Positions 4,428-59,633 of a stretch of 64,000 nt of DNA are shown piece by piece. Numbering within the stretch: position 1 is the stretch's first letter; every line of letters begins with the position of its first letter. The notes under the pieces are model-generated. The model was not told where the DNA came from. It worked only from the letters and a program-made list of their open reading frames with translations, and did not search any database. Made by a program: the position numbers and the translations under genes. Origin of the DNA: Xanthomonas sp. AM6 (GTDB lineage: Bacteria > Pseudomonadota > Gammaproteobacteria > Xanthomonadales > Xanthomonadaceae); NCBI RefSeq assembly GCF_025665335.1, contig NZ_CP106869.1, positions 3,932,501 to 3,996,500 of the forward strand. Direction: 5' to 3'.

Positions 4428-4431
<4 letters not shown>

Positions 4432-42720: not shown

Positions 42721-43854
42721 CTACAGCGCGCGGCCGATGATCTCGCGCAGGATCTCGCTGCTGCCGCCGAAGATGCGCAGCGCGCGCGCGTCGGCCCAGG
42801 CGCGGCCGATGCCGTATTCGCTGCTGTAGCCGTAGCCGCCGTGCAACTGCAGCAGCGCATCCAGCACCTGGCCCTGGGTCTCGGTGGCGTTGAGCTTGGC
42901 CATCGCCGCGGCGGTGGCCTGCAGCCGGCCCTGCATCTGCTCGCCCAGGCACTGGTCGAGGAAGCTGCGCAGCATCGCCAGCCGCGAGGCCGCGTCGGCG
43001 AGCACGAAGCGGGTGTTCTGGTGGTCGATCAGGTGGCGGCCGAACGCCTTGCGCTGGCGCACGTAGGCGATGGTCTGCTCGAGCATGCCTTCGGCCGAGG
43101 CCGCCGCGCGCAGCGCGATCGCCAGGCGCTCGGCGGCCAGTTGCTCGCCGAGGTAGTCGAAGCCGCGCTGTTCCTCGCCGAGCAGGTGCGACACCGGCAC
43201 CGCCACGTCCTGGAAGAACAGCTCGCTGGTGTCCTGCGCGTGCTGGCCGATCTTGGCCATCGGCGCGCCGCGGGTGACGCCGGGCAGCGCGGTGTCCACG
43301 CAGAACAGGCTCAATCCGCGCGCGCCCAGTTCCGGCGCCACGGTGGCCACCACCACCGCCACGTCGGCGTTGCTGCCGTTGGTGATCCAGGTCTTCTGGC
43401 CGTTGAGCAGGTAGTGTTCGCCTTGCCGTACGGCGCGGGTGCGGATCGCCTTGAGGTCGCTGCCGGCGCCGGGCTCGGTCATCGCGATCGCGCCGATCGC
43501 CTCGCCACGCGCCATCTTCGGCAGCCACGCCTCGCGCACCGCGTCGCTGCCGTAGCGCATCAGGTACGGCGCGACCATGTCCGAATGGATCGAGAAGCCG
43601 ATGCCGAGGAAATTGGCCCGCGCCAGTTCCTCGATCACGCAGGCGGCATGCCCGTCGTCGCCGCCGAGGCCGTAGGGTTCGGGCAGCTGGCAGTTGAGCA
43701 GGCCGGCCGCGCCGGCCGCGCGCCACAGCGAGCGCGGGGTGATGCCGTCGCGCTCCCATTGCGCGTAGTGCGGGGCGATCTGCGCCTCGATGAAGCGCCG
43801 CACCTGGTCGCGGAACAGGGCGTGATCTTCGCGGAAGACGGGGCGCTCGCGCAC
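42721..43854 (-). CDS. Acyl-CoA dehydrogenase-family flavoprotein, last gene of the exopolysaccharide operon
   Basis: A 377-residue flavoprotein with FAD and substrate motifs AMTEPGAGSD (124-133) and GQKTWITNG (152-160), RKAFG, and the C-terminal LHGGYGYSSEY. At the usual place of the catalytic Glu (the YEGT position) it has Gly (RIFGGSSEI), but Glu242 in LAAERLAIA matches the alternative catalytic Glu of long-chain and isovaleryl-CoA dehydrogenases. GTG 43854, two bases after the AlgF-like stop, gives the normal N-terminus. In this operon it may oxidise an acyl or aminoacyl group on the carrier protein, as flavin dehydrogenases do with prolyl-carrier proteins; ordinary fatty-acid oxidation is the simpler alternative. 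Confidence 0.88.
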   Translation of the reverse strand: MRERPVFREDHALFRDQVRRFIEAQIAPHYAQWERDGITPRSLWRAAGAAGLLNCQLPEPYGLGGDDGHAACVIEELARANFLGIGFSIHSDMVAPYLMRYGSDAVREAWLPKMARGEAIGAIAMTEPGAGSDLKAIRTRAVRQGEHYLLNGQKTWITNGSNADVAVVVATVAPELGARGLSLFCVDTALPGVTRGAPMAKIGQHAQDTSELFFQDVAVPVSHLLGEEQRGFDYLGEQLAAERLAIALRAAASAEGMLEQTIAYVRQRKAFGRHLIDHQNTRFVLADAASRLAMLRSFLDQCLGEQMQGRLQATAAAMAKLNATETQGQVLDALLQLHGGYGYSSEYGIGRAWADARALRIFGGSSEILREIIGRAL

Positions 43855-43856
43855 GC

Positions 43857-44546
43857 TCAGCGGCCGACCGGATCGGTGCCACTGAGCTGGCCCTGCAGCA
43901 CCGGCGCGGCGGCGCTGCCGCTCAGGAACAGGCTGTAGTGGTCGCCGGGCTGCAACGGCGGCAGCGCCAGCGGCGCGCTGTCCTTGCCGCCGCATCCGGC
44001 GACCAGCTGCGCCTTGACCGGGTTGATCGCACGCGCGCTGCTGGCGCCGGCGGCGACCGCCGGGAACACCACCGGGCCGTTGCCGGCCATCGCCAGCCGC
44101 GCCTGGCCGCAGCCGCTGGCCAGGTTGTAGAAACGGATCTCGGCCTTGAGCGCATCGCTGCTGCCGCCGCCGTCGGCCAGCACCGCCAGCGGCCGCGACG
44201 GTGCGGCCGGGTCCAGCACCAGCGTAGTGAAGCTGCCGGCGGCGACCTGCGCCTGCTGGCGCGCCTTGCCGGCCACGTGCACCGCGAATGGCTTGCCGCC
44301 TTCGACGATGGCGTAGCGAGTGGCGCGGATGGCCGGGCCGATGCGCTGCTCGGCACCGTTGCCGACGCCGACCGTGAGCGCGACGCTGCCCGGGTTGAGC
44401 ACGCGCACGAACGCCGAGCCGGCCGGCGGGCGGGCGGCGTACAGCTGCGCGAGGCGGCCTTCCGAAGCGCCCTGCTGGGCGCTGGCGGCCAGCGGCGCGA
44501 GCGCCAGCACGGCAGTGGCGAGCAGGGTCATGATCGGTCTCATCAT
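43857..44546 (-). CDS. AlgF-like periplasmic protein
   Basis: A 229-residue exported protein with signal peptide (ending AASAQQ). The mature part starts LYAARPPAGSAFVRVLNPG and includes INPVKAQLV, both close to the pattern of AlgF, an essential periplasmic partner in alginate O-acetylation. It has no enzyme motif. ATG 44546 overlaps the stop of the adenylating-enzyme gene (ATGA), and the stop is two bases before the dehydrogenase start. The presumed role is an adaptor between the membrane acyltransferase and periplasmic transferases. Confidence 0.8.
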   Translation of the reverse strand: MMRPIMTLLATAVLALAPLAASAQQGASEGRLAQLYAARPPAGSAFVRVLNPGSVALTVGVGNGAEQRIGPAIRATRYAIVEGGKPFAVHVAGKARQQAQVAAGSFTTLVLDPAAPSRPLAVLADGGGSSDALKAEIRFYNLASGCGQARLAMAGNGPVVFPAVAAGASSARAINPVKAQLVAGCGGKDSAPLALPPLQPGDHYSLFLSGSAAAPVLQGQLSGTDPVGR

Positions 44547-46018
44547 CGTTTCGGTTCCTGGCTGCGGAGCGTGCGCGCCAGTGCGTAGCGCTGCTCCAGT
44601 TGTTTGCGATCGACCTTGTGGGTGGCGCCGGTGGGCAACGCGTCCACGGCGATCAGTTCGGAGGGAATCATGTACGGCGGCACGCGCTGGCCGAGCTGCC
44701 GCTTCCAGTCGTGCAGCGCGTCGGGCAGCGGCTGCACCGCGCCGGCGCCCGGCGCGGCCGGTTCGACGAAGCCGATCATCCGCGCCAGGCTGCCGTCGGG
44801 CCGGCGCAGCACCACCGCCGCGCCGGCGACCACGCCATCCAGGGTGGACAGCGCCGCGTCCACTTCGGCCAGTTCGATGCGGTAGCCGTTGAGCTTGATC
44901 TGGTCGTCCTTGCGGCCGCGGAAGTAGATGCGGCCCTGCGCATCGACGTCGCCGAGGTCGCCGCTGCGGTAGGCGCGCTTGCCGTCGTGCTCGAACAGCA
45001 CGCCCTGGTCCAGGTCCGGGCGTTCCAGGTAGCCGCGCATCACGTGGTCGCCGGCCATGCAGATCTCGCCGTCGTCGATGAACACCTGCGCATAGGGCTT
45101 GGCCACGCCGATCGGGAACGGGTTGGGCGCGGCCGCGCGCAACGCCGGATCGATCTCCACCCAGGTGGTGGAACAGGTCGCCTCGGTCGGGCCGTAGGAG
45201 TTGACGATGCGCGCGCGCGGGAAGCGCGCCCACAGTTCCTCGGCCACGCGCGGGGTCAGCGACTCGGCGCCGAACACGAACACCTGCAGCGTGGGCAGGT
45301 GCTCGGCGCCGAAGCGCGGGTTGAGCAGCTGCTGGCGCACGAACGAGGGCGTGGACGCCCACACCGCCACGTCGGCATCGCGCAGGTGTTCGACGAAACG
45401 CGCGCTGTCGGCGATCACCTCGCGCGGGCACAGCACGCAGCAGCCGCCCAGGCCGAGCGCGCCGCACAGGTCGAACAGCGAGAAATCGAAGCTGAACAGC
45501 ATCTGGTTGAGGAACGCCGGCGCCGGCCCCAGCGCCAGGCAGTCGCGGATCCAGCCGGCGAACAGCGCCACGCTGTCGCGACCGATCTGCACGCCCTTCG
45601 GGTCGCCGGTGCTGCCGGAGGTGAACATGATGTAGGCCAGGTCCGGTACCGCCAGCGCGCGCGCCTCGTCGGCGCCGGGGCCGAACGCATCGGCCGCCGC
45701 GTCGTAGACCGCGGCGGCATGCACCAGCGCGGTGATGCGCTGCAGCCGCGCCGGCGGATTGATGGTGTCCACCGGCACGTAGGTCACGCCCAGCTGCAGG
45801 CAGCCGAGCATGGCCACCACGAACGCGGACTGCTTGTGGCCCCAGATCACCAGCGCATGGCCCGGCCGCACGCCGGCCTGCTGCGCGCGCGCGATCCAGT
45901 CCTGCGTGGCCTGGTACAGCCCGGCCCAGTCCAGCACCCCGGCGGCATCGTGCAACGCGGGCGCATGCGGCGCGCGGTCGCGTTCGACGAAGCGGCACTG
46001 GTCGAAATCAAAGCGCAT
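44543..46018 (-). CDS. DltA-like amino acid-adenylating enzyme
   Basis: A 491-residue ANL-family enzyme expected to activate a carboxylic acid with ATP and load it on the adjacent carrier protein. It shows A3 FTSGSTGDPKG (132-142), A5 NSYGPTEAT (273-281), A7 YRSGDLG, A8 GRKDDQIKLNGYRIELAEV, and the C-terminal catalytic Lys (468) in TGATHKVDRKQL. Asp178 in FSFDFS sits where aminoacyl-adenylating domains hold the substrate amino group, so an amino acid is likely. The overall pattern is DltA-like, but the Cys that tunes DltA for D-alanine (FCGE segment) is not present (FGAE here), so the amino acid may not be D-alanine. Confidence 0.85.
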   Translation of the reverse strand: MRFDFDQCRFVERDRAPHAPALHDAAGVLDWAGLYQATQDWIARAQQAGVRPGHALVIWGHKQSAFVVAMLGCLQLGVTYVPVDTINPPARLQRITALVHAAAVYDAAADAFGPGADEARALAVPDLAYIMFTSGSTGDPKGVQIGRDSVALFAGWIRDCLALGPAPAFLNQMLFSFDFSLFDLCGALGLGGCCVLCPREVIADSARFVEHLRDADVAVWASTPSFVRQQLLNPRFGAEHLPTLQVFVFGAESLTPRVAEELWARFPRARIVNSYGPTEATCSTTWVEIDPALRAAAPNPFPIGVAKPYAQVFIDDGEICMAGDHVMRGYLERPDLDQGVLFEHDGKRAYRSGDLGDVDAQGRIYFRGRKDDQIKLNGYRIELAEVDAALSTLDGVVAGAAVVLRRPDGSLARMIGFVEPAAPGAGAVQPLPDALHDWKRQLGQRVPPYMIPSELIAVDALPTGATHKVDRKQLEQRYALARTLRSQEPKR

Positions 46019-46045
46019 GGAGGCGGCTCCGGCCGTGGTCCAGGA

Positions 46046-46276
46046 TCAACGCCGGTGCGCGGCGACGTACTCGGCCAGCACCTGCACCGATTCGACCAGC
46101 GTGTCGATCTCGTCGATCGGCAGGGTCACGCCGAGGCGGTCCTTGACCTCGACCATCAGCTGCACCTTGGACATCGAATCGAACAGCGATTCCATGTACT
46201 CGTCGGGCTGCACGCGGGTGCCGATCACGCTCTCGACGATGTCGGTCAGCTGGGTCTGGAGGGTCTGCATGTCCAT
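46046..46276 (-). CDS. DltC-like acyl/peptidyl carrier protein
   Basis: A 76-residue acidic four-helix protein with the phosphopantetheine Ser34 in LFDSMSKVQL, the D-S-x context of carrier proteins, and a C-terminal ESVQVLAEYV helix. ATG 46276 is chosen for the AAGGTG ribosome site 6 bases upstream; a second ATG two codons later is less good. It lies 13 bases after the MBOAT gene and 27 before the adenylating enzyme, so it is the natural carrier for that enzyme. Confidence 0.9.
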   Translation of the reverse strand: MDMQTLQTQLTDIVESVIGTRVQPDEYMESLFDSMSKVQLMVEVKDRLGVTLPIDEIDTLVESVQVLAEYVAAHRR

Positions 46277-46289
46277 GGGATTCACCTTG

Positions 46290-47870
46290 TCAGAACTGGA
46301 AATAGAGGAAACGCGATTCTTTGTGCAGGCTCGCCAGGCACAGCGCGAGCAGCGACAGCATCGCCAGCAGCCACGGCAGGTTCGGCTGCCAGCGCATCCA
46401 CGCGCGCGGCGCCGGGCTCGGCTTGGCCAGCGCCGGCGAGTACACGCCCATGATCTGGTGCGCGTTGGGCGCCAGCCACACCACCGCCAGCAAGGCCGCG
46501 ATGTACAGCAGCTGCAGGTGGTGGCCGGCGAGCAGGCGCCAGCCGTCGGCCACGCCCATCCCGGCGACGTGGCCGAGGTTGTCCAGGCGTTCCCAGCCGC
46601 GCAGGCCGGCCATGCCCTGCACAAGTTGCCATGCCGCATGCACGCCGTCGGCGCGGAAGAACGCCTGCGCGAACAGCACCGCGACGAAGGTCAGCAGCAG
46701 GTAGCCGGCATGCTGCAGCGGGTTGAGCGTGCGCAACGCCGCCGGCTTGCGCCCGCCGACGAAGATGCGCCAGGCGTGGTTGATCGCCAGGTAGGCGGCG
46801 TGCAGCAGGCCGAAGATCAGGAACTGCAGGCCGGCGCCGTGCCAGATCCCGGCCAGGCCCATCGCCCACACCGTGGGCAGCACGATCATCGAGGCGAAGC
46901 CGCCGGCCGAGGCCACCGCGGCCGGGCCGGTGGCGCGCCCGTGGCGGGTGCGCCAGCGCGTCACCGCCATCGCCACCGGGTAGTACAGGTAGGCGGTGAT
47001 GTAGCGGGTCAGGGTCATGTGCCAGCGCGCCCAGAAGTCGATCACGCTGGTCGCCTTGTACGGCGAGTTGAAGTTGAGCGGGAAGCGGATGCCGAACATC
47101 CGCGCCAGGCCCAGCGCCATGTCCGAATAGCCGGAGAAATCGAAGTACAGCTGCAGCGCGTAGCTCAGCGCGGTGGCCCACGCGCCCCAGAACTGCACCT
47201 CGCCGGTACTGGCGAAACCGGCGTCGGCGTACGGCGCGATGCTGTCGGCCAGCAGCACCTTCTTGGCCAGGCCGATCACGAACAGCATGCCGCCGACCGA
47301 CAGGTTGTCGGCGTGGAAGCGGTAGGTCTCGCGCCTGCTGAACTGCGGCATCATCTCCTTGTGGTGGAGGATGGGGCCGGCGATCAGGTGCGGGAAGAAG
47401 GTCACGAACAGCACGTAGCTGAGCGGGCTGCGGTCATTGACCACGCCGGCGCGGCAATCGAGCAGGTAGCCGATCTGGGTGAAGGTGAAGAAAGAGATGC
47501 CCAGCGGCAGGATCAGCGCGTCCATCGGGCCGACGTTGAAGCCCACCTCGTGCGCGAAGGTGAGCATCGCCGCGAAGTACTTGTAGTGCACCAGCAGCGC
47601 CAGGTCGGCGGCCACGCCCAGCGCGGTGGCCAGCAGTTGCAGCCGCGGCCGCCCGGCCAGCGACAGGATCGCCAGGCTGACCAGGTAGTTGAACACGATC
47701 GAGCCGCCCAGCAGCACCACGAACTGCGGGTTCCACCAGCCGTAGAACACGATCGAGGCCACGCACAGCCACAGCGCGGCCAGGCGCGGCTGCAGCGCGC
47801 CCAGCAGGTAGTGCACGCCCAGCGCGACCGGCAGGAAGATCAGCAGGAACAGGAAGGAGTTGAACAGCAT
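46290..47870 (-). CDS. MBOAT acyltransferase (DltB/AlgI type)
   Basis: A 526-residue inner-membrane protein with about eleven hydrophobic segments. The MBOAT signature residues are present: His284 in FWARWHMTLTRYI and the invariant catalytic His344 in GIWHGAGLQF, plus LYFDFSGYSDMALG. DltB and AlgI carry an acyl group across the inner membrane, from a carrier protein thioester (DltB) or an acetyl donor (AlgI). Coming directly before a carrier protein and adenylating enzyme, a DltB-like mode is more likely here. Confidence 0.93.
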   Translation of the reverse strand: MLFNSFLFLLIFLPVALGVHYLLGALQPRLAALWLCVASIVFYGWWNPQFVVLLGGSIVFNYLVSLAILSLAGRPRLQLLATALGVAADLALLVHYKYFAAMLTFAHEVGFNVGPMDALILPLGISFFTFTQIGYLLDCRAGVVNDRSPLSYVLFVTFFPHLIAGPILHHKEMMPQFSRRETYRFHADNLSVGGMLFVIGLAKKVLLADSIAPYADAGFASTGEVQFWGAWATALSYALQLYFDFSGYSDMALGLARMFGIRFPLNFNSPYKATSVIDFWARWHMTLTRYITAYLYYPVAMAVTRWRTRHGRATGPAAVASAGGFASMIVLPTVWAMGLAGIWHGAGLQFLIFGLLHAAYLAINHAWRIFVGGRKPAALRTLNPLQHAGYLLLTFVAVLFAQAFFRADGVHAAWQLVQGMAGLRGWERLDNLGHVAGMGVADGWRLLAGHHLQLLYIAALLAVVWLAPNAHQIMGVYSPALAKPSPAPRAWMRWQPNLPWLLAMLSLLALCLASLHKESRFLYFQF

Positions 47871-47882
47871 CGTCGTCGGCGC

Positions 47883-49007
47883 TCAGTCGGTCTCGGCCAG
47901 CGCCGCGCGTTCGCCGTCGGTCAGCGGCAGGGACAGGGCCATTTCCGAGAATTCCCAGACCACCAGCTTCAGGCTCGGCGGCCATTGCGCGCGCTGCGGC
48001 CAGGCCGCCAGCAGCGCGCCGGAGAACTGGCCGCCGTCCAGGCTCTGGTTCCACACCTCGCGGCCGAGCGCATGGCCCAGGCGCTCGGCGAACAGGCTGC
48101 GGCGCCCGTTGGAACTGCCCAGCAGCAGTACTTCCACCGGCGGCGTGTCGTCCAGCAGGCCGCCGCTGCGCAGCGGCGCGATGGCCTGCTCCGGTTCGCG
48201 GTCCAGCGCCGGGCGCCAGGCCGGCGGCGCGTGCTCCAGCCCGGCCAGCACGATCAGGTCGCCCATCCGCGGTTTCGGCGCGCCGGGCGCACCGACCTCG
48301 AACGCCTGCCCGCCACGCCCGCCGAGCAGCGGCAGTGCCGACGCGGCCACCGCGTCGGCGGCGCGCTGCGCGCCAATGCGGTTCATGTGCACGTCGGTGC
48401 GGAAGAACACCGGTTCCTGCCCGGCCTGCAGCACCGGCAGCAGGTCGGTCGAGGCCACGCCGGCGGCGGCCAGCGCCTGCTGCCACTGCTCCAGCCGCGC
48501 GCGCATCGGCGCCGAATGGCGCAGGCCGCAGGTGTGCGCCTGCTCGATCCGCGCCTTGTCCGGCACCGCCACCACCAGCAGCTGCACGCCCTGCGCCTGC
48601 AGCTGCCGCGCCCAGTGCCGCATCAGGCGCACGCGCTGGGCGAACACCGCCTCGCCCACGCCCGCGGGCGGGCGCAGCCCGTCGCGGTAGAACAACCAGC
48701 CCGGGCAACCCAGCGCGACCTGCGGCCCGGCATCGCCGAGCAGCCGGTAGCGCAGCGCCGCGCCGGCCAGATCGGCCTGCGCCTGCAGCGGCAGCTTCAG
48801 CGCCTGGTTGATCGCGCGGCCGGCCTCGCCGTCGGCCCAGCGCGCCGGCGCCAGCGACGCCGCCGGCAGCTGCGCGCGGCCCAGCATCCAGCCGCCGGAC
48901 AGCAGCCCGGCGACCAGCAGCACCACCACCACCACGGCGGTGGCCACGTGCGCGCGCGCAGGCGCTGCCGCAGGCAGGGGCGCAGGCGCGCCGGGACGTG
49001 CGCTCAT
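47883..49007 (-). CDS. AlgJ/AlgX-like membrane-anchored SGNH protein
   Basis: A 374-residue protein with one N-terminal membrane helix (about 20-43) and a periplasmic SGNH-like domain. It shows CPGWLFYRDG, VVAVPDKARIE, the DxH pair in RTDVHMNR (Asp205, His207) and a Ser in VLLLGSSNGRR (298/299), the pattern of alginate acetyltransferases AlgJ and AlgX. It would accept the group delivered by the MBOAT and pass it to the polymer. The motif HW of the partner paralogue is HM here. Confidence 0.82.
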   Translation of the reverse strand: MSARPGAPAPLPAAAPARAHVATAVVVVVLLVAGLLSGGWMLGRAQLPAASLAPARWADGEAGRAINQALKLPLQAQADLAGAALRYRLLGDAGPQVALGCPGWLFYRDGLRPPAGVGEAVFAQRVRLMRHWARQLQAQGVQLLVVAVPDKARIEQAHTCGLRHSAPMRARLEQWQQALAAAGVASTDLLPVLQAGQEPVFFRTDVHMNRIGAQRAADAVAASALPLLGGRGGQAFEVGAPGAPKPRMGDLIVLAGLEHAPPAWRPALDREPEQAIAPLRSGGLLDDTPPVEVLLLGSSNGRRSLFAERLGHALGREVWNQSLDGGQFSGALLAAWPQRAQWPPSLKLVVWEFSEMALSLPLTDGERAALAETD

Positions 49008-49011
49008 CGGC

Positions 49012-50034: not shown

Positions 50035-50051
50035 GGCGGTTCCTTGCATGA

Positions 50052-52874
50052 TCAGTAGTAGAAGGTGGCGGTGGCGAACAGGCCCTTGGCGCGCTGGGTA
50101 TCCCCGCCGCCGAGCGCGAAGCGGTACTGCACGCTCAGGTCCAGCGAGGAGCGCGCCGCGTTGTAGTGGTCCTCGCGGAACCAGTAGCGCACGCCGAGCC
50201 CGGGGCCGGCGCCCAGCGACCAGCTGCGGTCGGTGTCGGACAACGCGAACGCCTGCTCGCCGATCAGCGGATAGGCGATGCCGCTGACCCGCGAGCGCTG
50301 GTCGAGCCAGTCCGCGCCCACCACCACCGACGGCGTCAGCACCCAGCGGGTCTGGTCGGCGCCGAACCGGTAGCTGCGCCCCAGGCGCAGCTCGGCGGCG
50401 GCGAACCATTGCGAGCGGTGCAGGCGGCCGTCGGAGTCGAGCAGGCTTTCGACCGGGGCGCCGGTGGCGTCCAGCCGGTCCACGCTGAAGCGCGCGCGGT
50501 TGTCGTCCCAGCTGTAGCCGGCCTGGGCATAGCCGCTCAGCGTCCACCACTGGTTCACGTCGGTACGCACGCCGGTGCCGTGGTAGAAACCATAGGTCAG
50601 GTACGACATCCAGCCGCCGGCGTCGCTGTCCAGGCGGTAGCGCGCCAGCGTGTTGACCTGCAGCGGCTGGTTCGAGTCGCGCTGGATGCGGCACTGGACC
50701 GCGGCCGCGTCCGGATAGACGCCGCCGTTGCGGGTGGCGGTGCCGAGGAACTGGCGGCGCTCGATGCCCGCGCTCAGGCCGGTGCGGCCGAACGCGTAGC
50801 GCACGCCGAACGATCCGATCGTGGAAGGCCAGCCGGCGATCGAGCGCGAACGGCTCAGGCGCTCGGCGCGGGCGCGCGCGTCCTCGGTGGCTTCGCCGGT
50901 GCACGGATCCACCGCGCGCACCGATTCGAACGTGCCGCCTTCGTCGTACAGCGTGTTGGCCACGCGGGCGTAGGCTTCCAGCGTGCCATGTCGGTCGTTG
51001 AGCGCCTGCGGCCGCCAGAACGCCTCCAGGGTGCCGAAGGCCGAGTCGCCCGGGGTGCTGATCGCCGATCCGCCCAGGTTGGTCGCGGCCTGGCGCGCGC
51101 CGCGGTAGCCGGCCGAGGCGATCAGGCCCCACTCGCGCGAGAGGTTGGCGATCGAACTGCGGGTGTTGTAGCGCTGCGCCTTGTCCAGCGGCAGCCGGCC
51201 CTGGTCGGCGCGATCGATCGCGCTGCGCAGCAGCGCCACGGCCTGCGGGTTGTCGCCATTGGCTGCGCTGGCATAGGCCTGGTCGAGCACCACGCTGGGC
51301 GGTGCTTTGCCGGTGGCGTCGGCGGCGCGGAAATCGTCGAGCGCCTGCGCCGGTTCGCCGGCGCGCAGCTGCAGATACCCGCGCTGCATCAGCAGTCCGG
51401 CGTCGGCGGGGCGCTGGCCCAGCGCGCTGTCCAGGCGTTGCCGCGCCTGCGCCTGCTGGGCGCGGTCGCCGGCGGCCAGCGCGGTGGTGAGCAGGTTCTG
51501 CAGGCTGGCGTTGTCCGGGCTCTCCTGCAGCGCGCGCTGCGCTTCGCGGATGGCCTCCTGGTAATCCTGTCGCCCGTACGCGGCGTAGGCGCGTTGCGCG
51601 GCGCTGCCGCTGCCCTGCAGGTCGGCCGGGGTCAGTTCGCACTGGGTGCCGTAGGGCGTGTCGCGGCACTGCTGGAACGGCGCCGGGTACGACGCCAGGG
51701 TCAGCGCCGGTGCCGGGCGCGCCTTGCGCAGCGCCTTCTCGCGCTGGGCGATGGCCTGGCCGATCTGCTTGCGCGCGGTCTCGTCCGCATCGGCCAGCGG
51801 GTCGGCCTGCAGCGGCTGCAGCAGGCGCGCGGCACGCTCGCGATCGCCGGCGGCGATCGCCGCATCCACCGCCAGCAGGCGCACGTTGCGCTGCTGTTGC
51901 GCATCCAGCCAGTCCTGGCGCAGGGCGGCGTCGAAATCGGCGTTGGCCTCGGCGCTGCGCAACTGGCGCTGGCGCAGATACCCGCGCATGACCAGCGCCA
52001 CGGTGTCTTCGCTGTCGTTGGCCAGCGCCTGGTCGGCGGTGGCCTCGGCGGCGGGCAGTTGCCCGTCCAGCAACTGCACGGTCATCAGCAGCAGGCGATG
52101 CGACGCCACGTCCGGCGCATACGCCACCGCTTGCCGGGCGAACCCGGCGGCGGCGCCGAAGTCCTGCTCGATCAGCGCCTGGTAGCCCTCCTGCGCCGGC
52201 TTGACCGCGCGCTGGCGGCCCAGCGCCACGCGCTTGGCCTGCAAATCGGCGACATTCGGCGCGCCCAGCTGGATCGCCGTGGCGGCCGCGGCTTCGGCCT
52301 GTTCGAACTGTTGCTGGACCTCCAGCGCCGACACCCACAGGATCGCCCATGCGCCCTGCTGCGGCTGCTGCCGGAACGCCTGTTCGGCCTGCTCGGCGGC
52401 CTGCGCCATGCGGTCGTTGTTGTAGGCCTCGTAGGCCTGGGTGGCCAGCGCGAAGGCGCGCTGGTAGGCCTGTTCGGCCGCGCTCGGACGCGCGGTCGCG
52501 CGCGGCGCGGGGGCGCCGCCGGCGCGCGCGGAGGCCGACGCCGGCGCCGCCGCGGCCAGCCCCGGCAGCGCCGGATCGCGCAGCCCTTCGGCCAGCGCGC
52601 GGCGGGCCTGCGCGCGCGCTTCGTCGCCGCGGCCCAGTTTCTGCAGCGCGTAGATCTGCAACAGGCGCAGGCGCACCACGTCCGGGCGCAGCCGCGCCGC
52701 TTCGGCCGCCTGGCGGCTGGCCTGCTGGTAGTCGCCGCGCGCGTAGGAGGCGTAGGCATCCTCGGCGATGCGGTAGGCGGCGCCGGCCAGCGGCAGTTGC
52801 TGCGCGTGCGCGGTGGCGCTGCCCAGGCCGAGCAGGCCCAGGACGATGACGCCCGAAAGCAAGGTGGTTCTCAT
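50052..52874 (-). CDS. nfrA: NfrA-like TPR and outer-membrane protein
   Basis: A 940-residue exported protein: signal peptide (ending TAHAQQ), a long helical TPR region (to about residue 650, with units such as AYRIAEDAYASYARGDYQQA and PDNASLQNLLTTALAAGDRAQ) and a C-terminal beta-rich domain ending in FYY, as outer-membrane barrels do (DLSVQYRFALGGG near the end). Domain order and length match NfrA, the outer-membrane protein used by phage N4, thought to export a surface glycan. ATG overlaps the nfrB stop. The sequence is too divergent to say if it serves as a phage receptor here. Confidence 0.85.
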   Translation of the reverse strand: MRTTLLSGVIVLGLLGLGSATAHAQQLPLAGAAYRIAEDAYASYARGDYQQASRQAAEAARLRPDVVRLRLLQIYALQKLGRGDEARAQARRALAEGLRDPALPGLAAAAPASASARAGGAPAPRATARPSAAEQAYQRAFALATQAYEAYNNDRMAQAAEQAEQAFRQQPQQGAWAILWVSALEVQQQFEQAEAAAATAIQLGAPNVADLQAKRVALGRQRAVKPAQEGYQALIEQDFGAAAGFARQAVAYAPDVASHRLLLMTVQLLDGQLPAAEATADQALANDSEDTVALVMRGYLRQRQLRSAEANADFDAALRQDWLDAQQQRNVRLLAVDAAIAAGDRERAARLLQPLQADPLADADETARKQIGQAIAQREKALRKARPAPALTLASYPAPFQQCRDTPYGTQCELTPADLQGSGSAAQRAYAAYGRQDYQEAIREAQRALQESPDNASLQNLLTTALAAGDRAQQAQARQRLDSALGQRPADAGLLMQRGYLQLRAGEPAQALDDFRAADATGKAPPSVVLDQAYASAANGDNPQAVALLRSAIDRADQGRLPLDKAQRYNTRSSIANLSREWGLIASAGYRGARQAATNLGGSAISTPGDSAFGTLEAFWRPQALNDRHGTLEAYARVANTLYDEGGTFESVRAVDPCTGEATEDARARAERLSRSRSIAGWPSTIGSFGVRYAFGRTGLSAGIERRQFLGTATRNGGVYPDAAAVQCRIQRDSNQPLQVNTLARYRLDSDAGGWMSYLTYGFYHGTGVRTDVNQWWTLSGYAQAGYSWDDNRARFSVDRLDATGAPVESLLDSDGRLHRSQWFAAAELRLGRSYRFGADQTRWVLTPSVVVGADWLDQRSRVSGIAYPLIGEQAFALSDTDRSWSLGAGPGLGVRYWFREDHYNAARSSLDLSVQYRFALGGGDTQRAKGLFATATFYY

Positions 52875-55015
52875 GCCTGCAGTTCTCCGCCGGCGCTGTA
52901 TCGGGGTAGGCCGGCACGGCGATGCTGCTCGCGCACGGCGGTGGCGATCGCCGCCTGGGTGGCGACGCCCTGCTTGACCAGGTGGTCGCCGATGCGGCCG
53001 TCGCGCTGCGGCCTATATTCGTCCAGCACGCGCTCGAACTGATCGCGCGCGATCAGGCGCATTTCCACCAGCAGGTCGCCCAGCAGCGGCACCGCGTCGA
53101 TGCGGTAGCTTTCGCCGCTGATCAGGCGCAGGCCGGCATTGATTTCGCTTTCGCGCGCGATCGACTGCCTGAGCACGCTGGCGTGCGCGTCCTGCAGCAG
53201 CCGCGCCTGCTCGGCCTCGGACAGCGCGTTGGACACCGCGACCGCCAGCTCGCCGGGCGCGCCCGGCGGCAGCGGCAGCAGGCGCCACTGCACGCAGGCC
53301 TCCACCGACAGCGGGAACTGCCCGGCCTGCAGGTAGTCCACGTCGATCGCCGCGCGCGGCAGGTCACCCTGGAAGGCGATCGCTTCGGCCAGGGTTTCAT
53401 CGTCCAGCCAGCCCTGCGCGACCAGGATCCGCCCCAGCGGCTGCTGGCGCCCGCCCTGCTGTTGCTGCAGCGCCTGCTGCAGGCGCTCGGGCTCGACCGC
53501 TTCCCAGATGGACAGCAGTTCGCCCAGGCGCCGGCGCGTGTGCACCAGCTGCGCGGCGGAGGGGAAATCGTGCATGGTCTTGTCCCACACCATGCGCTTG
53601 CCGAACAGCAGGTACAGCAGGAACATGCGCCAGGCGCGCGCGGTGGCCATGAAGTTGATCATGTTGCCGACCACCATGCGCGGGATCGACATCAGCGCAT
53701 GTTCCCAGCCGTACAGGCGGTTGACGAAGTAGAAGCGCTGCGCCACGCGCGTGGCCAGCGCCGCGGTGGTCAGCAGCGCCACGTTCATCTGCCAGGTACC
53801 GCTCTGGAAGATGGTCGGGAACTGGGTGCTCCACGCGCCGGTCACCTTGAGCACCCAGAACAGCATCAGCTGCAGGAAGATCAGGTAGGCGAAGACGCTG
53901 ATGAACGAGGTGACGATGCCCTTGCGGTCGCGCGCGAGCAGGTACTTGGTCGCCAGCGAGCCGCGCCAGCCCAGCGTCTCCCAGCTCTGCAGGCCGATGC
54001 CCAGCACCCAGCGCGCCTTCTGCCGGTACGAGGCGCGGAAGTTGTCCGGGAAGTATTCGCGCACGCACAGCGCCATGCGCAGGGTGCGCTCGCGCACCGG
54101 GCCCCAGCCGAACCACGACGGGCGGCGCACGCGGAACTGCACCGGGAAGCGCGCGAAGATCGAGTGCATGCCCATCGCCGCCAGCCGCGCGCCGACGTCG
54201 TAGTCCTCAGTCAGGCTGTCGGTGTTGAACGGCTGGTTGCCGGTGGCCTCGCTCAGCGCCACCAGCGCCTTGCGCGAGAAGCAGGTGCCCACGCCGGCCG
54301 AGGGCACCATGCCGGACACGCTTTCGCGCACCACCAGGTCCTTGGCGTGCCATTCGGCGAACTCGTCCATGTACACGCCGGCGACCAGTTCGTACCACTC
54401 GCGGTCCAGCGAGGTCACCGGCAGCTGGATCATGTCCTTGCGCGGCAACAGGTAGTTGAAGAACCGCAGTTCCATCGGGTGCAGCACGTCCTCGCTGTCG
54501 TGCAGGACCACGCCGGCGAATTCGATGCCGTGGCGCTTCTCGTAGTCGAAGATCGCCAGGACCAGCCAGTTCAGGCAGTCGGCCTTGCTGGTCGGGCCGT
54601 CGTGCGGCACCTCGACGCGGCGCATGCGCTTGTAGCGCCGGCACATGCGCTCCACTTCGGCGATGGTCTGCGCGTCGTTGGGATAGGTGCCGACGAAGAC
54701 CACGTAGTCGTGGTAGTCGAGCACGTCGATCATGTTCTCGACCATCTGCCCGATCACGTCGTACTCGGCCCAGGCCGGCACCATGATCGCCAGCGTCTGC
54801 TCGGGCCGCTGCAGCAGGTCCTGCTGGGTCAGCGGCCGGTACTGGCTGCGCTGCTTGAGGATCAGGGTGCGCCAGATCTCGCGCACCCAGTACCAGGCAT
54901 CGATGAACAGGTCGTCGATGCTGGAGATCAGGATCACCACCGCCACCACCACTGCCGCCGTCTCCAGGAAGGCGTAGTAGTTGGCGAGGTGGATGTTCCA
55001 GTACAGGCCGTCCAC
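52871..55015 (-). CDS. nfrB: NfrB-like glycosyltransferase with C-terminal MshEN region
   Basis: A 714-residue inner-membrane family 2 glycosyltransferase. The catalytic part (about 70-340) has HDSED (172-176), TED (269-271) and QKARW (332-336), the D-DxD-TED-QxxRW set of processive synthases such as cellulose synthase. Membrane segments flank it. After residue 490 come MshEN-type motifs: RLGELL...LQQALQQQ (496-518) and, 30 residues on, PLGRILVAQG...LAEAIAFQ (526-549); a looser RIGDHLVKQG copy lies near the C-terminus. MshEN domains bind c-di-GMP, and E. coli NfrB is controlled this way. The second copy has Pro in place of the leading Arg. Confidence 0.92.
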   Translation of the reverse strand: MDGLYWNIHLANYYAFLETAAVVVAVVILISSIDDLFIDAWYWVREIWRTLILKQRSQYRPLTQQDLLQRPEQTLAIMVPAWAEYDVIGQMVENMIDVLDYHDYVVFVGTYPNDAQTIAEVERMCRRYKRMRRVEVPHDGPTSKADCLNWLVLAIFDYEKRHGIEFAGVVLHDSEDVLHPMELRFFNYLLPRKDMIQLPVTSLDREWYELVAGVYMDEFAEWHAKDLVVRESVSGMVPSAGVGTCFSRKALVALSEATGNQPFNTDSLTEDYDVGARLAAMGMHSIFARFPVQFRVRRPSWFGWGPVRERTLRMALCVREYFPDNFRASYRQKARWVLGIGLQSWETLGWRGSLATKYLLARDRKGIVTSFISVFAYLIFLQLMLFWVLKVTGAWSTQFPTIFQSGTWQMNVALLTTAALATRVAQRFYFVNRLYGWEHALMSIPRMVVGNMINFMATARAWRMFLLYLLFGKRMVWDKTMHDFPSAAQLVHTRRRLGELLSIWEAVEPERLQQALQQQQGGRQQPLGRILVAQGWLDDETLAEAIAFQGDLPRAAIDVDYLQAGQFPLSVEACVQWRLLPLPPGAPGELAVAVSNALSEAEQARLLQDAHASVLRQSIARESEINAGLRLISGESYRIDAVPLLGDLLVEMRLIARDQFERVLDEYRPQRDGRIGDHLVKQGVATQAAIATAVREQHRRAGLPRYSAGGELQA

Positions 55016-55021
55016 AGGCGG

Positions 55022-57241
55022 TCAGTGCCCGGACTGGGCGGACTTGCGGCGACGGCGGACCTGGGTCACGCGCGCGGCCAGCAGCATGAACACGATCACC
55101 CCGACCAGCACCAGCAGCCACACCATATGCTGCTGCCACACCGGCTGCGGGTCGGCCTGCTCGGCCAGCTGCGCGCCGGTCGGGTCCTGGCCGTCGAAGT
55201 CCTGCACCACGCCGCGCGCATCCAGCAGCGCCAGGTTGCCGCGGATCAGCCGGAACGGCGCGTCGAGCTGCGGGCCCTGCGCGCCCAGCTCGCGGTAGAT
55301 CACCCCGGTCCTGGCGCCGCTGCCGACCACTTCGACCAGCGCGGCGCGGTCGAGCCCGGCCACGTCCAGCAGCACCTGGTTGCCCGGGCCGGACACCACC
55401 AGCTTGCCGCCGCGCAGCGCGCCGGTCTGCTCCAGGCCCTGCGGGGCCAGCATGAAGCTCAGGTAGGCGCCGTTCGGCGCGATCGCGGTCTTCGGGTCGC
55501 CGAGCTTGAGCGTGGCGGCCATCGGCGAGGCGCCGGTCGCGCTGGCGAGGTGGATCACCTTGGCCAGCGTCGCCGGCGCATCCTGCAGCCAGCTCGACGG
55601 CACGAACACCTCGTGCGCACCGGCCAGCTGCGAGGCGGCGCCGACGAAATCGCCGCCGAGGCTGCGCTCGCTCAGGCGGATGTGGCTGCTGGGCAGCACC
55701 GACACCGGGTAGCCGGTGGCCGGATCGTGGCAGTACGGGCGCGCCGGCTGGCGCAGGAAGCTGATCCGCACCTGGTTGCGCGCGGCCAGCGCGTAGCCCG
55801 GCACCTTGGCGACCAGGCGCTGCGGCTTGCCGTCGCTGTTGAGGACCTTGGCGCCCACCAGGTAGTCGTTGAAGAAGATCGAGGCGACCGCGCCCTGCCC
55901 GGCCGGATTCGGCGCGGCGGAGACGTCGACCACCACTTCGCTGGGCAGGCGCCCGTCGCTGGACAGCGCGCCCAGGTCGAAGCTGGCGGTGCGGTCGCCG
56001 CGCGCGACGATGTCCAGGGTCCCGGCCATGTTGCCCAGGCGGTTGAGCAGCACCACGCCCTTGTCGGCCGGCGGCTGCAGCGCCGTGCCGACCAGCAGCG
56101 AGCGGCCCAGCGCGTAGGCGCGCCACTGCTCGGTCAGCAGGCCGGCGACCTTGGCGCCGGCGCCGGTGGCGACCAGCAGGGTCGGACGCCCGCCGACCAG
56201 CGCCACCTGCACCGAGGCCTTGGCGGCCGGCTGTTCGAACCCGGCCATGTCGGCCTTGCGCCACGCGGCGAACGCGCTGGCCGCGTCCGGCGACGCCGCG
56301 CCGACCTCGCCGGCCAGCGCATCCAGCGCGGCGCGCACGCCGGCGCGCAGCGGATCGCTCAGCACCGCCACGTCCACCGCGAGCGGGCCGGCATCGCCCA
56401 GCGACAGCAGCGCGCCGACCTCGGCCAGGCTGCCGATGCGGTGGCTGGCGCTGCCGTCGGCCAACGCCGCATAGGCGGGAATGCCGGCCAGGCTGGCCGG
56501 GATGCTCAGCCCGCGCAGGTCCACGCTGCCGCCCACCGCCGGCAGCGCGACCACCTCCACGCGCTTGCCGCCGTTCTCCAGCGCCGCGCCCACGCGCCAT
56601 GCGGCGTCGTAGCTCTCCACGCTGGTGGCACGGCCATCCACCAGCAGCCGCACCTTGGCCGGCAACGCGCCCCAGGCCTTGGCCACGGTGTCGATCGCGC
56701 GGCCGTCGAAGCGGTAGCTGAAACGCGACTCCGGCGACAGCCGCAGCACGTTGGCCGGCGCGCTCTGGTCGGCGCACTCGTATTCGGACACCACCGACCA
56801 CCAGCCCACGCCGAAGCGCACGAAGCCGTTGGCGCGGGCGAACCCGTCGATGCCGATCAGCTGGCTGGCATCGCCCTGCGCGTCGGTGATCGAGCGCGCC
56901 GCCACCGGGTCGCCGTCGATCGACAGCAGGCTGGAGGTGCGCCCGGTGTGTCCGCGCATGTAGCGCGCATCGACCTGCAGTTTCGCATCGTGGGTCGGCA
57001 CGCCGGCCGGCACCGGCAGGTAGATCTCGCGCTGGCTTTCCTGGCCGCTGAGCACCAGCGGCTGGGCGAAGCCCAGGTCGCGCAGGGTCATCGAGCGCTG
57101 CACCGTGGTCTGGCCGGCCCATTCGCCGAACTGGCCGGCGACGGAGTCGGCGGCGGCGGCGGGCGCCAGTGGGGCCAGCAGGACCAGGGCCAGCGGCCAT
57201 CCCTTGGGGAAGCGTGCGGTACGACGTCGGGTCTGGGTCAT
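55022..57241 (-). CDS. BcsB-like periplasmic polysaccharide synthase subunit
   Basis: A 739-residue protein with a signal sequence (about 1-34), a large periplasmic part with cellulose-binding-like domains (for example VLSGQESQREIYLPVP near the start and SFLRQPARPYCHDPATGYP), and a C-terminal membrane helix (about 703-722) followed by a basic tail. It belongs to the BcsB family that guides a growing glycan through the periplasm and stimulates the synthase. ATG 57241 overlaps the wecB stop, and only 6 bases separate it from nfrB, so it is the likely partner of NfrB. It is distinct from the cellulose bcsB expected upstream of bcsC. Confidence 0.88.
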   Translation of the reverse strand: MTQTRRRTARFPKGWPLALVLLAPLAPAAAADSVAGQFGEWAGQTTVQRSMTLRDLGFAQPLVLSGQESQREIYLPVPAGVPTHDAKLQVDARYMRGHTGRTSSLLSIDGDPVAARSITDAQGDASQLIGIDGFARANGFVRFGVGWWSVVSEYECADQSAPANVLRLSPESRFSYRFDGRAIDTVAKAWGALPAKVRLLVDGRATSVESYDAAWRVGAALENGGKRVEVVALPAVGGSVDLRGLSIPASLAGIPAYAALADGSASHRIGSLAEVGALLSLGDAGPLAVDVAVLSDPLRAGVRAALDALAGEVGAASPDAASAFAAWRKADMAGFEQPAAKASVQVALVGGRPTLLVATGAGAKVAGLLTEQWRAYALGRSLLVGTALQPPADKGVVLLNRLGNMAGTLDIVARGDRTASFDLGALSSDGRLPSEVVVDVSAAPNPAGQGAVASIFFNDYLVGAKVLNSDGKPQRLVAKVPGYALAARNQVRISFLRQPARPYCHDPATGYPVSVLPSSHIRLSERSLGGDFVGAASQLAGAHEVFVPSSWLQDAPATLAKVIHLASATGASPMAATLKLGDPKTAIAPNGAYLSFMLAPQGLEQTGALRGGKLVVSGPGNQVLLDVAGLDRAALVEVVGSGARTGVIYRELGAQGPQLDAPFRLIRGNLALLDARGVVQDFDGQDPTGAQLAEQADPQPVWQQHMVWLLVLVGVIVFMLLAARVTQVRRRRKSAQSGH

Positions 57242-58419
57242 GGCATCAGGTCTGAAGAGAGGGAATGGGAAACCGCCGCGGCACGGCCGGGGACGAACGG
57301 GTCGAATGGCAGGCCGCGCAAGGCGGCCACGATCCGCGCCGAGGCGCGGCCATCGCCGTAGGGGCTGGCGTCGGGCAGGAACTGCGCCGGTCGCGCCGGC
57401 TGGTCGCAGGCGGCATGCACCGCGGCCACGATCCGCGCCGGATCGGTGCCGACCAGCTTGACCACCCCGGCCTGGACCGCTTCGGGGCGCTCGGTGACCG
57501 CGCGCATCACCAGCACCGGCCGGCCCAGCGCCGGCGCTTCTTCCTGCACCCCGCCCGAATCGGTCAGCACCACGTGCGCGCGCTGCATCAGGCGCACGAA
57601 GGCGAGGTAGTCCTGCGGCGCGATCAGGTGCACGTTGTCCAGCCCGCCCAGCTGCGCGCGGACCGGGCCCTGCACGTTCGGATTCAGGTGCACCGGGTAG
57701 ACGATCTGCAGGTCCGGGCGCTGCGCCAGTTCGGCCAGCGCCCGGCAGATGTTGGCGAAGCCGTCGCCGAAGCTCTCGCGGCGGTGCCCGGTGACCAGCA
57801 GCAGCTTGCGCTCCGGCAGCAGGAACGGGAACTGCGCATCGACCGCGCCGCGCAGCGCGGCATCGCGCTGCAGCCGCTCCACGGTCTGTTCCAGCGCATC
57901 GATCACGGTGTTGCCGGTGACGCTGATGCGGCCGGACAGGTGTTCCTGCTCCAGGTTGCGGCCCGAGCTGTCGGTGGGCGCGAACAGATGGTCGGCGACC
58001 ACATCGATCACCCGCCGGTTCATTTCCTCCGGCCAGGGCTGCTCCAGGTTGCCGGTGCGCAGGCCCGCCTCGACGTGGCCGACCGGGATGCGCCGATGGA
58101 AGGCGGCCAGCGCCGCGGTCATCGCGGTGGTGGTGTCGCCGTGCACCAGCACGCGGTCCGGCTGCACCTGCTCGTACAGGGCGTCGAGCCTGGCGAACAG
58201 CCGCGAACACAAACCGTTCAGGGTCTGGTTGGCTACCATGACGTCCAGGTCGTGGTCGGGCTGGATCTCGAACAGCGACAGCACCTGGTCCAGCATCGCC
58301 CGATGCTGGCCGGTGATGCAGACCAGGGAGTCGATGTCCGGCGCGGCGTGCAGCGCGCGCACCAGCGGCCCCATCTTGATGGCTTCAGGGCGCGTGCCAA
58401 AAACGGAAAGAACCTTCAC
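57238..58419 (-). CDS. wecB: UDP-N-acetylglucosamine 2-epimerase (non-hydrolysing) WecB
   Basis: A 393-residue cytoplasmic enzyme interconverting UDP-GlcNAc and UDP-ManNAc. It has FGTRPEAIKM, VHGDTTTAM, GHVEAGLRTGN, GHRRESFGDG, YPVHLNPNV and DSGGVQEEAPALG. GTG 58419 gives the usual start MKVLSVFGTRPEAIK and has GGAG 7 bases upstream. As first gene of the operon it most probably provides UDP-ManNAc to NfrB. In E. coli WecB serves both enterobacterial common antigen and the NfrAB glycan; here no wecC follows, arguing for direct use of ManNAc. Confidence 0.95.
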   Translation of the reverse strand: MKVLSVFGTRPEAIKMGPLVRALHAAPDIDSLVCITGQHRAMLDQVLSLFEIQPDHDLDVMVANQTLNGLCSRLFARLDALYEQVQPDRVLVHGDTTTAMTAALAAFHRRIPVGHVEAGLRTGNLEQPWPEEMNRRVIDVVADHLFAPTDSSGRNLEQEHLSGRISVTGNTVIDALEQTVERLQRDAALRGAVDAQFPFLLPERKLLLVTGHRRESFGDGFANICRALAELAQRPDLQIVYPVHLNPNVQGPVRAQLGGLDNVHLIAPQDYLAFVRLMQRAHVVLTDSGGVQEEAPALGRPVLVMRAVTERPEAVQAGVVKLVGTDPARIVAAVHAACDQPARPAQFLPDASPYGDGRASARIVAALRGLPFDPFVPGRAAAVSHSLSSDLMP

Positions 58420-58445
58420 CAACCCGCTCCATGTGGTCTGAATAG

Positions 58446-58489
58446 CGTGATGCTCGTCACACTATAGTACCCCAAACGGGCAGGTGCCA
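58446..58489 (-). promoter_or_regulatory. Promoter of the wecB-nfr operon with a CRP/Clp-type site
   Basis: On the minus strand TATAGT (58461-58466) makes a good -10 box; 17 bases upstream TGGCAC is a poor -35. Abutting the -10 on its downstream side is TGTGA-N6-TCACG (58446-58461), a one-mismatch match to the CRP-family consensus TGTGA-N6-TCACA. It would lie on the transcription start, where binding normally represses. In Xanthomonas the CRP-like protein Clp binds c-di-GMP, which releases it from DNA. Confidence 0.5.
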
Positions 58490-59117: not shown

Positions 59118-59633
59118 CTACAGCTCGTAGGACAGCACGTCCTCGAAGCCGAACTTGCCGAAGTCGCGGATCCGCGACGGGTACAGCCGGCCGATCAGGT
59201 GGTCGTGCTCGTGCTGCACCACCCGCGCATGGAAGCCTTCGGCCTCGCGCACCACCGCGGCGCCATCCGGGTCCACGCCGCGGTAGCGGATATGGCGGTA
59301 GCGCGGGATCACCGCACGCAGCCCGGGAATGGACAGGCAGCCTTCCCAGCCGTCCTCCAGTTCGTCGGACAGCGGCTCGATCTGCACGTTGGCCAGCGCG
59401 GTGCGCGGCACCGGCGGCGCGTCCGGATAGCGCGCGTTGCTGTCGAAGCCGAACACCATCAGCTGCAGGTCCACCGCGATCTGCGGCGCGGCCAGGCCGA
59501 CCCCGCGCGCGGCATCCATGGTCTGGAACATGTCGGCCACCAGGGCATGCAGCGCTTCGCTGCCGAAGTCGTCGACCGGCTGCGCGATGCGCAGCAGGCG
59601 CTGGTCGCCCATACGGATGATGTCGCGGATCAT
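59118..59633 (-). CDS. def: Peptide deformylase
   Basis: A 171-residue metalloenzyme removing the formyl group from nascent proteins. It has all three family motifs: GVGLAAPQI (motif 1), EGCLSIPG (motif 2, with the metal Cys) and QHEHDHL (motif 3, HExxH). ATG 59633 has GGAG 7 bases upstream. It lies alone between two exopolysaccharide operons and downstream of bcsC by 275 bp. Xanthomonads usually have more than one deformylase gene; this may be the accessory copy, because the essential one is normally next to fmt. Confidence 0.95.

Follow-up and report, generated by a model that had tools for sequence, protein, structure and literature searches.

The stretch analysed here, hereafter the window, comprises 64,000 nucleotides of Xanthomonas sp. 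AM6 (contig NZ_CP106869.1, positions 3,932,501 to 3,996,500) and is part of a single-contig genome of 4.9 Mb. Its minus strand carries an eleven-gene operon, in which a polymer pathway encoded by wecB, a bcsB-like gene, nfrB and nfrA is followed by an acylation block: algJ- and algX-like genes, an MBOAT gene, genes for an acyl carrier protein (ACP) and an adenylating ligase, an algF-like gene and a gene for an acyl-CoA-dehydrogenase-family enzyme. A convergent DUF4434 gene lies directly behind it (Table 1).

The eleven-gene operon is real. A first-pass annotation of this DNA had described eleven same-strand genes separated by at most 27 bases, which is borne out by the junction coordinates between the wecB start at 58419 and the dehydrogenase stop at 42721. 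The extent proposed there, 42721 to 58489, is correct at its left end, but its right end lies beyond the wecB start. The wecB and bcsB-like genes overlap by four bases (ATGA; bcsB-like start at 57241), nfrB and nfrA also by four, and the ligase and algF-like genes by four or one. The gaps measure 6 bases between the bcsB-like gene and nfrB, 17 between nfrA and algJ, 4 between algJ and algX, 12 between algX and the MBOAT gene, 13 between the MBOAT and ACP genes, 27 between the ACP and ligase genes, and 2 between algF and the dehydrogenase gene, whose start is most likely the GTG at 43854. For gene 5, a frame at 49004-49987 was rejected, having no family match and a low-complexity translation, and 49012-50034 was used instead. 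Families were assigned from Pfam, NCBIfam and matches to solved structures.

Table 1. Position and family assignment of the features at the nfr locus of the window
Feature	Coordinates	Strand	Basis or remark
CRP/Clp-type palindrome TGTGA-N6-TCACG	58446..58461	-	42 bases upstream of wecB start
wecB, non-hydrolysing UDP-GlcNAc 2-epimerase	57238..58419	-	TIGR00236 446.6 bits, cut-off 210
bcsB-like periplasmic/inner-membrane subunit	55022..57241	-	PF03170 26.6 bits, cut-off 21
nfrB-type GT2 synthase, MshEN-related c-di-GMP motif	52871..55015	-	NF012033 1150 bits; NF053729 72.8 bits, cut-off 38
nfrA-type TPR/outer-membrane export protein	50052..52874	-	PF13283 (NfrA_C) 75.7 bits, cut-off 25
algJ-like SGNH acyltransferase, 340 aa	49012..50034	-	PF16822 241.6 bits; best solved relative AlgJ 4o8v, E 6.9e-18
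algX-like SGNH acyltransferase, 374 aa	47883..49007	-	PF16822 222.6 bits over 97-355
MBOAT acyltransferase	46290..47870	-	PF03062
Acyl/peptidyl carrier protein (DltC-like size)	46046..46276	-	PF00550 (PP-binding) 25.6 bits
DltA-derived adenylating ligase (AMP-binding)	44543..46018	-	Code DFFAVGSCSK; TIGR01734 339.8 bits, cut-off 559.85
algF-like periplasmic accessory protein	43857..44546	-	PF11182 58.4 bits, cut-off 34.4
Acyl-CoA-dehydrogenase-family enzyme, putative acyl-ACP dehydrogenase	42721..43854	-	PF00441/PF02771/PF02770
DUF4434 gene, YbcH family, convergent, glycoside-hydrolase-like fold	41676..42692	+	PF14488 167 bits

Gene content and conservation

The first four genes form a pathway of the N4-glycan-receptor (NGR) type, which is also found alone. 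Both the NfrA-type outer-membrane partner and a YbcH-family protein are present at the locus, and NfrB passes the NF053729 model for its cyclic di-GMP (c-di-GMP) motif. The predicted fold of the BcsB-like protein matched cellulose-synthase entries at all of PDB ranks 1-22 (TM-scores 0.24-0.34); as the model is poor (pLDDT 57), it serves as support only. The DUF4434 protein is 29% identical to E. coli YbcH, the product of the third gene of nfrBA-ybcH. Its own predicted fold (pLDDT 83.6) resembled a putative alpha-L-fucosidase most closely, followed by xylanases and mannanases, and E169 and E269 are invariant across 16 rows. The protein may be a glycosidase.

The DUF4434 gene, which the first-pass annotation does not mention, marks the end of the locus. 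A match flanks its 3' end in all eight nfrB-bearing genus members (the window included), in genome G071, in Stenotrophomonas nematodicola and S. daejeonensis, and in 19 full-block stretches of the Achromobacter family together with Achromobacter sp. UMC46. At L219 it lies 2.3 kb off and is clipped by the stretch end, and at L220 it lies 0.8 kb off. Three named Burkholderiales records have the gene beside the locus. The orientation was convergent in those loci checked, except in Cupriavidus basilensis (L072), where the gene (13446-14318) is on the same strand as the operon, unlike in the other checked full-block loci.

All eleven genes occur in the same order in 27 genomes of xanthomonads, Stenotrophomonas, the Achromobacter family and Cupriavidus, namely five genus members, 20 Achromobacter-family genomes, S. 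nematodicola and C. basilensis. Three loci (S. nematodicola, UMC46 and C. basilensis) show only part of the BcsB gene, at the locus end, and for these wecB was taken from a separate search. The wecB gene, first in the window's operon, is adjacent in the full-block genomes. Statements at the level of orders follow the taxonomy of the named records. The nfr and acylation blocks thus travel together in related genomes; the result that the first-pass annotation had named as a refutation, that the two never do so, was not obtained.

Within the genus, 8 of 20 genomes searched contain NfrB, and six of these eight have a ligase match; five hold the full operon, one a decayed block (G151) and two the core only (G111 and G153). 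G071 likewise has the core without the acylation block. In G151 (L044, 2705-5258) the core is intact, the ligase is reduced to its last part, AlgJ is in pieces, the dehydrogenase is spread across several frames, and AlgX, MBOAT and carrier gave no match in the block, which is apparently a recent loss. A family sample of 149 genomes yielded no orthologue-level ligase match besides that of the window's own genome; a further 25 genomes matched at 29-40% identity, mostly in frames of nonribosomal peptide synthetase size. Among 369 genomes of the class, two matches had E-values of 1e-55 or lower: the ligase of the window itself and a solitary one in G527, near which no other operon relatives were found. 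Viral contigs gave no ligase match. In a scan of genome contigs, five of the best 80 of at least 311 relatives were nfr-linked (S. nematodicola, S. daejeonensis, Achromobacter pestifer, Achromobacter sp. UMC46 and C. basilensis), and all five have a wecB match directly upstream, which crosses one TGA in two of them.

The Achromobacter family (268 genomes) yielded ligase matches in 60: 22 at 71% identity or above, G796 at 55%, and the rest at about 47-56%, a group that is dra-type as far as read. The label dra for these DltA-type rows comes from Bordetella. Twenty of the 22 close carriers were examined (19 stretches and L071), leaving out G559 and G562 (short contigs), and the gene order was complete in 20/20, with nfrA spread over two frames in G546 (L204).

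Residue conservation was followed over 29 loci, i.e., the 27 genomes, S. daejeonensis and G796, at positions that we take to be the active sites of the families. The tested TED and QxxRW residues of NfrB, the Asp, His and Ser of AlgJ, two His of MBOAT and the equivalents of Asp235 and Lys517 in the ligase are invariant (29/29). The same holds for the Asp, His and one candidate Ser of AlgX, while a second candidate is S in 19 and T in 10. WecB K15 (24/24), the phosphopantetheine Ser of the carrier (28/28) and, in the dehydrogenase, the Glu that occupies the LCAD/IVD position (27/27) are also conserved. In this check wecB of L204 and bcsB of L216 gave odd ends. The ratio dN/dS was below 0.5 for every gene in seven genome pairs, except for acp (76 codons), which reached 1.16 in one pair.

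The CRP/Clp-type palindrome is the sole such match in the window (0.06 expected; at least one in 5/100 shuffles). TGTGA-N6-TCAC is aligned at the same position in 7/8 nfrB-bearing genus members, and GTGA-N6-TCAC in the eighth, within surrounding DNA that has diverged; in eight other loci scanned, G071 and seven of the Achromobacter family, the site was not found. According to an excerpt of PMC3528676, Clp of Xanthomonas represses xagA by binding to a site of this kind, and c-di-GMP relieves the repression. The predicted site and the NfrB motif together suggest c-di-GMP control at two levels.

Upstream of the operon, the minus strand carries at 59118-63835 a gene resembling peptide deformylase genes and a BcsC-like TPR/outer-membrane gene (PF05420, 324 bits), which places a gene for cellulose-type export next to the nfr operon. 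Partial matches to this region occur upstream in L040, L042 and L043. Elsewhere in the window lie an FMN riboswitch (31640-31809, minus strand), an RNase P RNA (9501-9867, minus strand) and a tRNA-Gly(gcc) (38742-38837, plus strand), whose called span of 96 bases is unusually long.

An exchangeable slot behind nfrA

On comparison of the loci, algJ, algX and the MBOAT, ACP, ligase, algF and dehydrogenase genes behave as an optional block between nfrA and the DUF4434 gene. NfrB is present in 48/268 Achromobacter-family genomes, and 20 further nfr loci were examined, leaving aside seven genomes at 41-43% NfrB identity and G562. Acylation genes were unmatched in 18/20 of these loci; the one exception among the 18 is L249, with a weak match to the dehydrogenase (33%). 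In 12 of the 13 closest block-free loci, a distance of 3 to 541 bases separates the nfrA stop and a convergent DUF4434 match; the thirteenth, L238, has no such match.

The remaining two of the 20, G539 and G740, show a third version of the locus, nfrA-algF-algJ-algX-FkbH-ACP-MBOAT-VOC followed by the convergent DUF4434 gene. The FkbH proteins were identified by TIGR01686 (323 and 311 bits), and FkbH proteins load a glyceryl unit on carriers. Ligase, carrier and dehydrogenase are replaced in these two genomes by the FkbH-ACP cassette, which makes the donor end of the block exchangeable. A related cassette, ACP-FkbH-MBOAT-hypothetical-VOC, was seen at 2682-7960 of a plasmid of Rhodobacteraceae bacterium SC52 (L225), with no nfr genes nearby. 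In G796, nfr genes occur at two loci: L221 has a divergent ligase block in which no dehydrogenase was matched, and L248 has the core only.

Among plasmids, 25 records match NfrB, of which seven were looked at. Those of Variovorax, Nitratireductor and Pseudomonas carry the core with BcsB only, those of Burkholderia pyrrocinia and a Comamonadaceae bacterium the core with no BcsB-like match, and a Caballeronia plasmid the core with no acylation match. Paraburkholderia dioscoreae pII has an nfr cluster with algF-MBOAT-algX-algJ and no carrier genes.

The NfrA sequence tracks the presence and type of the block. Within the genus, NfrB is 93% identical to the window in both G111 (no block) and G150 (block), but NfrA is 73% identical in the former and 90% in the latter, and residues 189-470 of G111 diverge most. 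Among Achromobacter loci compared with A. pestifer, NfrA identity is 82-94% in 16 block carriers (NfrB 89-97%) and 54-80% in 13 non-carriers (NfrB 89-95%). The distant carriers L219 and L220 (NfrB 79%, NfrA 58-59%) behave as their distance predicts. NfrA of L204 and L235 reads in two pieces. No probability is given for this covariation because the species are not independent. In S. daejeonensis (L069, 3146-11470), NfrA is closer to the FkbH type (48%, 590 bits) than to the window (31%, 177 bits), while identity to the window amounts to 74-82% for algX, MBOAT, carrier and ligase. The locus is an apparent recombinant of FkbH-type and ligase-type nfr loci.

The idea of a single machine that makes, exports and decorates a polymer therefore needs to be divided. 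Linkage of its parts stands, given the 27 genomes, but indivisibility does not: the core occurs alone in G111, G153, G071 and 18/20 further loci, and G151 has a decayed block. Since the nfr core is often found without the acylation block, the locus is better described as a core plus an exchangeable module.

The ligase, its carrier and the transfer proteins

The ten pocket positions of the ligase read DFFA[V/L/M]GSCSK in 28/29 loci and DFFAYGGVSK in G796. Dra-type DltA rows from Achromobacter-family genomes, seven of them block-free, gave DLYVLCTVAK in 10/10 (two rows are identical), and B. subtilis DltA has DLMTMCTVA. Close ligase carriers of the Achromobacter family have a second DltA-like match at 52-56% identity in 21/22 cases; the ten dra-type codes above were read from other copies. 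An excerpt of PMC8972799 describes a cavity that a leucine, Met200 and Cys268 form around the D-alanine methyl group, Cys268 being the residue that excludes L-alanine. All three cavity residues are changed in the nfr-linked ligases, and the selecting cysteine is glycine in 29/29. A 44-row tree unites the 17 nfr-linked ligases in a single clade (100/100), next to the dra-type rows and inside the DltA group; the tree carries a long-branch warning (G796 among others), and the grouping of the dra rows is weak (72/49). By lineage and pocket, the ligase is thus a descendant of DltA and not DltA itself. With an altered pocket that has no selecting cysteine, the group added is probably other than D-alanine, and the retained Asp235 argues for an alpha-amino acid as substrate. 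The first-pass statement that DltA and DltC activate an amino acid is right about the DltA lineage, as the tree indicates, but not about DltA identity.

As a side observation, IS-flanked cassettes with the order dltD-small gene-MBOAT-ligase-carrier occur on plasmids of Klebsiella electrica and Enterobacter cloacae (L038 and L039). The ligase code in L038, DLIVIISIAK, is unlike that of D-alanine DltA and unlike the nfr type.

The dehydrogenase is placed by its nearest structures with a general and a long-chain acyl-CoA dehydrogenase, the prolyl-ACP dehydrogenase 4irn scoring far lower. It reached 200.3 of 650 bits with RedW and 191.7 of 500 with PigA, missing both cut-offs. The enzyme, which the first-pass annotation lists without giving it a role, probably oxidises or changes the carrier-loaded group. 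Formation of pyrrole-2-carboxylate from proline was considered as the principal explanation and set aside: the RedW and PigA cut-offs were missed, the structural relatives differ, and the ligase code is unlike the proline code.

The MBOAT protein missed the DltB cut-off (170.8 of 375 bits), and the carrier missed those of two DltC equivalog models (28.4 of 68 and 26 of 52.35 bits). A tree of 30 MBOAT rows groups the ten from ligase loci together (100/98), with the two from FkbH loci as their sister group (jointly 100/100), and sets nine DltB rows apart (100/99); some of the DltB rows are fragments, and the Paraburkholderia row has a long branch. On its score and its place in the tree, the MBOAT is not DltB. 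Ligase and MBOAT are therefore of separate origin, and the locus is a true hybrid; the earlier label of a Dlt/Alg hybrid was well chosen. The alginate-type set is present, with two PF16822 SGNH proteins bearing Asp-His-Ser and an AlgF (PF11182). The AlgX-like protein ends 19 residues past its SGNH domain, which leaves no room for a carbohydrate-binding module. Pfam and NCBIfam searches found no DltD among the eleven genes. Among the closest plasmid relatives of the MBOAT, 8 of 10 records were looked at, two of them without annotation; carrier genes occur in 1/6 annotated records (L225, FkbH-ACP).

Proposed pathway and comparison with known systems

It is fairly probable, in our estimate, that the locus serves to synthesise, export and decorate an exopolysaccharide of the NGR type, to which the block would add an alpha-amino acid other than D-alanine by way of the carrier. 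WecB would supply UDP-ManNAc, which NfrB would polymerise under c-di-GMP control. The BcsB-like protein would guide the chain across the periplasm and NfrA would allow its passage through the outer membrane, with the YbcH-like protein trimming or assisting. The ligase would activate the amino acid and load it on the carrier, and the dehydrogenase homologue would probably oxidise the loaded group. MBOAT may then move the acyl group over the inner membrane, AlgJ and AlgF may relay it, and AlgX may esterify the passing polymer. The product would be a ManNAc-type, aminoacylated polymer. A further proposal, put forward tentatively and at less than even confidence, is that the slot takes exchanged cassettes (none, a DltA-derived ligase-ACP with or without dehydrogenase, or FkbH-ACP-VOC), with NfrA changing along, so that related bacteria would carry chemically distinct groups on one and the same phage-receptor-type polysaccharide, and that the group in the window is a dehydrogenated amino acid. 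We know of no case of a dehydrogenated amino acid as a polysaccharide substituent.

Several observations weigh against this pathway. The NfrB equivalog model of E. coli (NF008411) gave 633 bits, below its cut-off of 1170, and Pfam MshEN was likewise below cut-off on NfrB (16.3 vs 23.1). The linkage of wecB shows only that UDP-ManNAc would be available. The ligase code matches no nameable substrate, so the specific amino acid cannot be read from it. A dehydrogenase orthologue was not found in the draft genome of S. daejeonensis (best match 36%), which has the same ligase code, nor within 3.7 kb after algF in G796; the enzyme is thus not strictly needed, and the substrate could differ. MBOAT and ligase distances correlate at 0.98, yet every compared gene pair reaches at least 0.83, as a co-inherited operon would also give.

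The published view of related clusters leads to a different explanation. For nfr clusters with alginate-type genes, PMC8669469 and PMC8669472 speak of acetylation in their main texts, and the cluster of P. dioscoreae pII has MBOAT, AlgX, AlgJ and AlgF without carrier genes. Plain alginate-like O-acetylation, with ligase, carrier and dehydrogenase as a co-transcribed small-molecule pathway, would account for both. We regard it as unlikely, since carrier and ligase lie within the acyl block in 29/29 loci and the two loci that share the MBOAT lineage without a ligase have another carrier cassette instead. Moreover, the MBOAT of the carrier-free cluster is only 32% identical and branches outside, though on a long branch.

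That a Gram-negative Dlt pathway places D-alanine on the NGR-type polymer, with the dehydrogenase as a passenger, is quite unlikely in our judgement, even though the ligase groups with DltA, has dra-type DltA as its nearest kin and keeps the Asp235 and Lys517 equivalents. The residues that hold the methyl group have changed (cf. the excerpt of PMC8972799), nearly all close carriers have a second DltA-like match, the dra rows read elsewhere being uniformly of D-alanine type, and none of ligase, carrier and MBOAT reaches its curated Dlt cut-off, in an operon in which no DltD was found. Core and block are separable, and the block might therefore decorate another surface glycan or a small molecule and share with nfr only its regulation. 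Such a target is very unlikely: the block occupies one precise slot in both groups, NfrA follows its presence and type, and the AlgX and AlgJ types of alginate act on the polymer during export in the account excerpted from PMC4148444.

If the proposed aminoacylation pathway is right, the exopolysaccharide pathway of the E. coli N4 receptor would be a platform in other genera for variable carrier-fed decoration. It would also offer a testable case of bacteria altering a phage-receptor glycan coat through swaps of enzyme cassettes, and a new type of donor, a carrier-borne and possibly oxidised amino acid, for alginate-type transfer machines.

Among known systems, natural-product sets of ligase, carrier and dehydrogenase, such as those for prolyl-carrier dehydrogenation to pyrrole, have the three kinds of enzyme in common with the window, but differ by the RedW/PigA scores and the proline code. 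Dlt/dra D-alanylation shares a DltA-lineage ligase, a small carrier and an MBOAT, whereas the window has an altered pocket, an MBOAT of other lineage, AlgJ/AlgX/AlgF replacing DltD, and a dehydrogenase. Alginate O-acetylation (AlgI, AlgJ, AlgX, AlgF) is similar in its MBOAT, two SGNH proteins with triads and AlgF; the window differs by a carrier-protein donor and by an AlgX-like protein too short for the carbohydrate-binding module. The transfer order AlgI-AlgJ/AlgF-AlgX is itself a proposed model in alginate, for which the acyl donor was still unknown in 2014, as far as the excerpt of PMC4148444 goes.

The E. coli Nfr/NGR system (nfrBA-ybcH and wecB) is alike in its WecB, its GT2 enzyme with a c-di-GMP motif, its NfrA-type outer-membrane protein and its YbcH-family protein. 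Its operon, in contrast, has no acylation block and no BcsB gene, and in the window the ybcH-like gene is convergent and wecB lies inside the operon. To our knowledge, no carrier-fed decoration module at the nfr slot has been described before. The main texts of PMC8669469 and PMC8669472 present E. coli NfrB as a c-di-GMP-activated synthase of an exopolysaccharide needed by phage N4, with UDP-ManNAc as proposed substrate. They also report that the nfr clusters of Simplicispira suum and Achromobacter xylosoxidans include genes for alginate-type acetyltransferases, so that the earlier remark that no such system had been described was too strong. Neither main text uses the words DltA, ligase, acyl carrier, dehydrogenase, alanyl or adenyl, and no paper among the open-licence PMC matches listed deals with a ligase or carrier in nfr loci. 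The S. suum and A. xylosoxidans clusters resemble the window in their nfr core, O-acyltransferase homologues and, in A. xylosoxidans, a BcsB homologue, but were published as acetylation (PMC8669469; PMC8669472). Compared with these systems, the locus is a known polymer pathway joined to a carrier-fed decoration module at an exchangeable slot.

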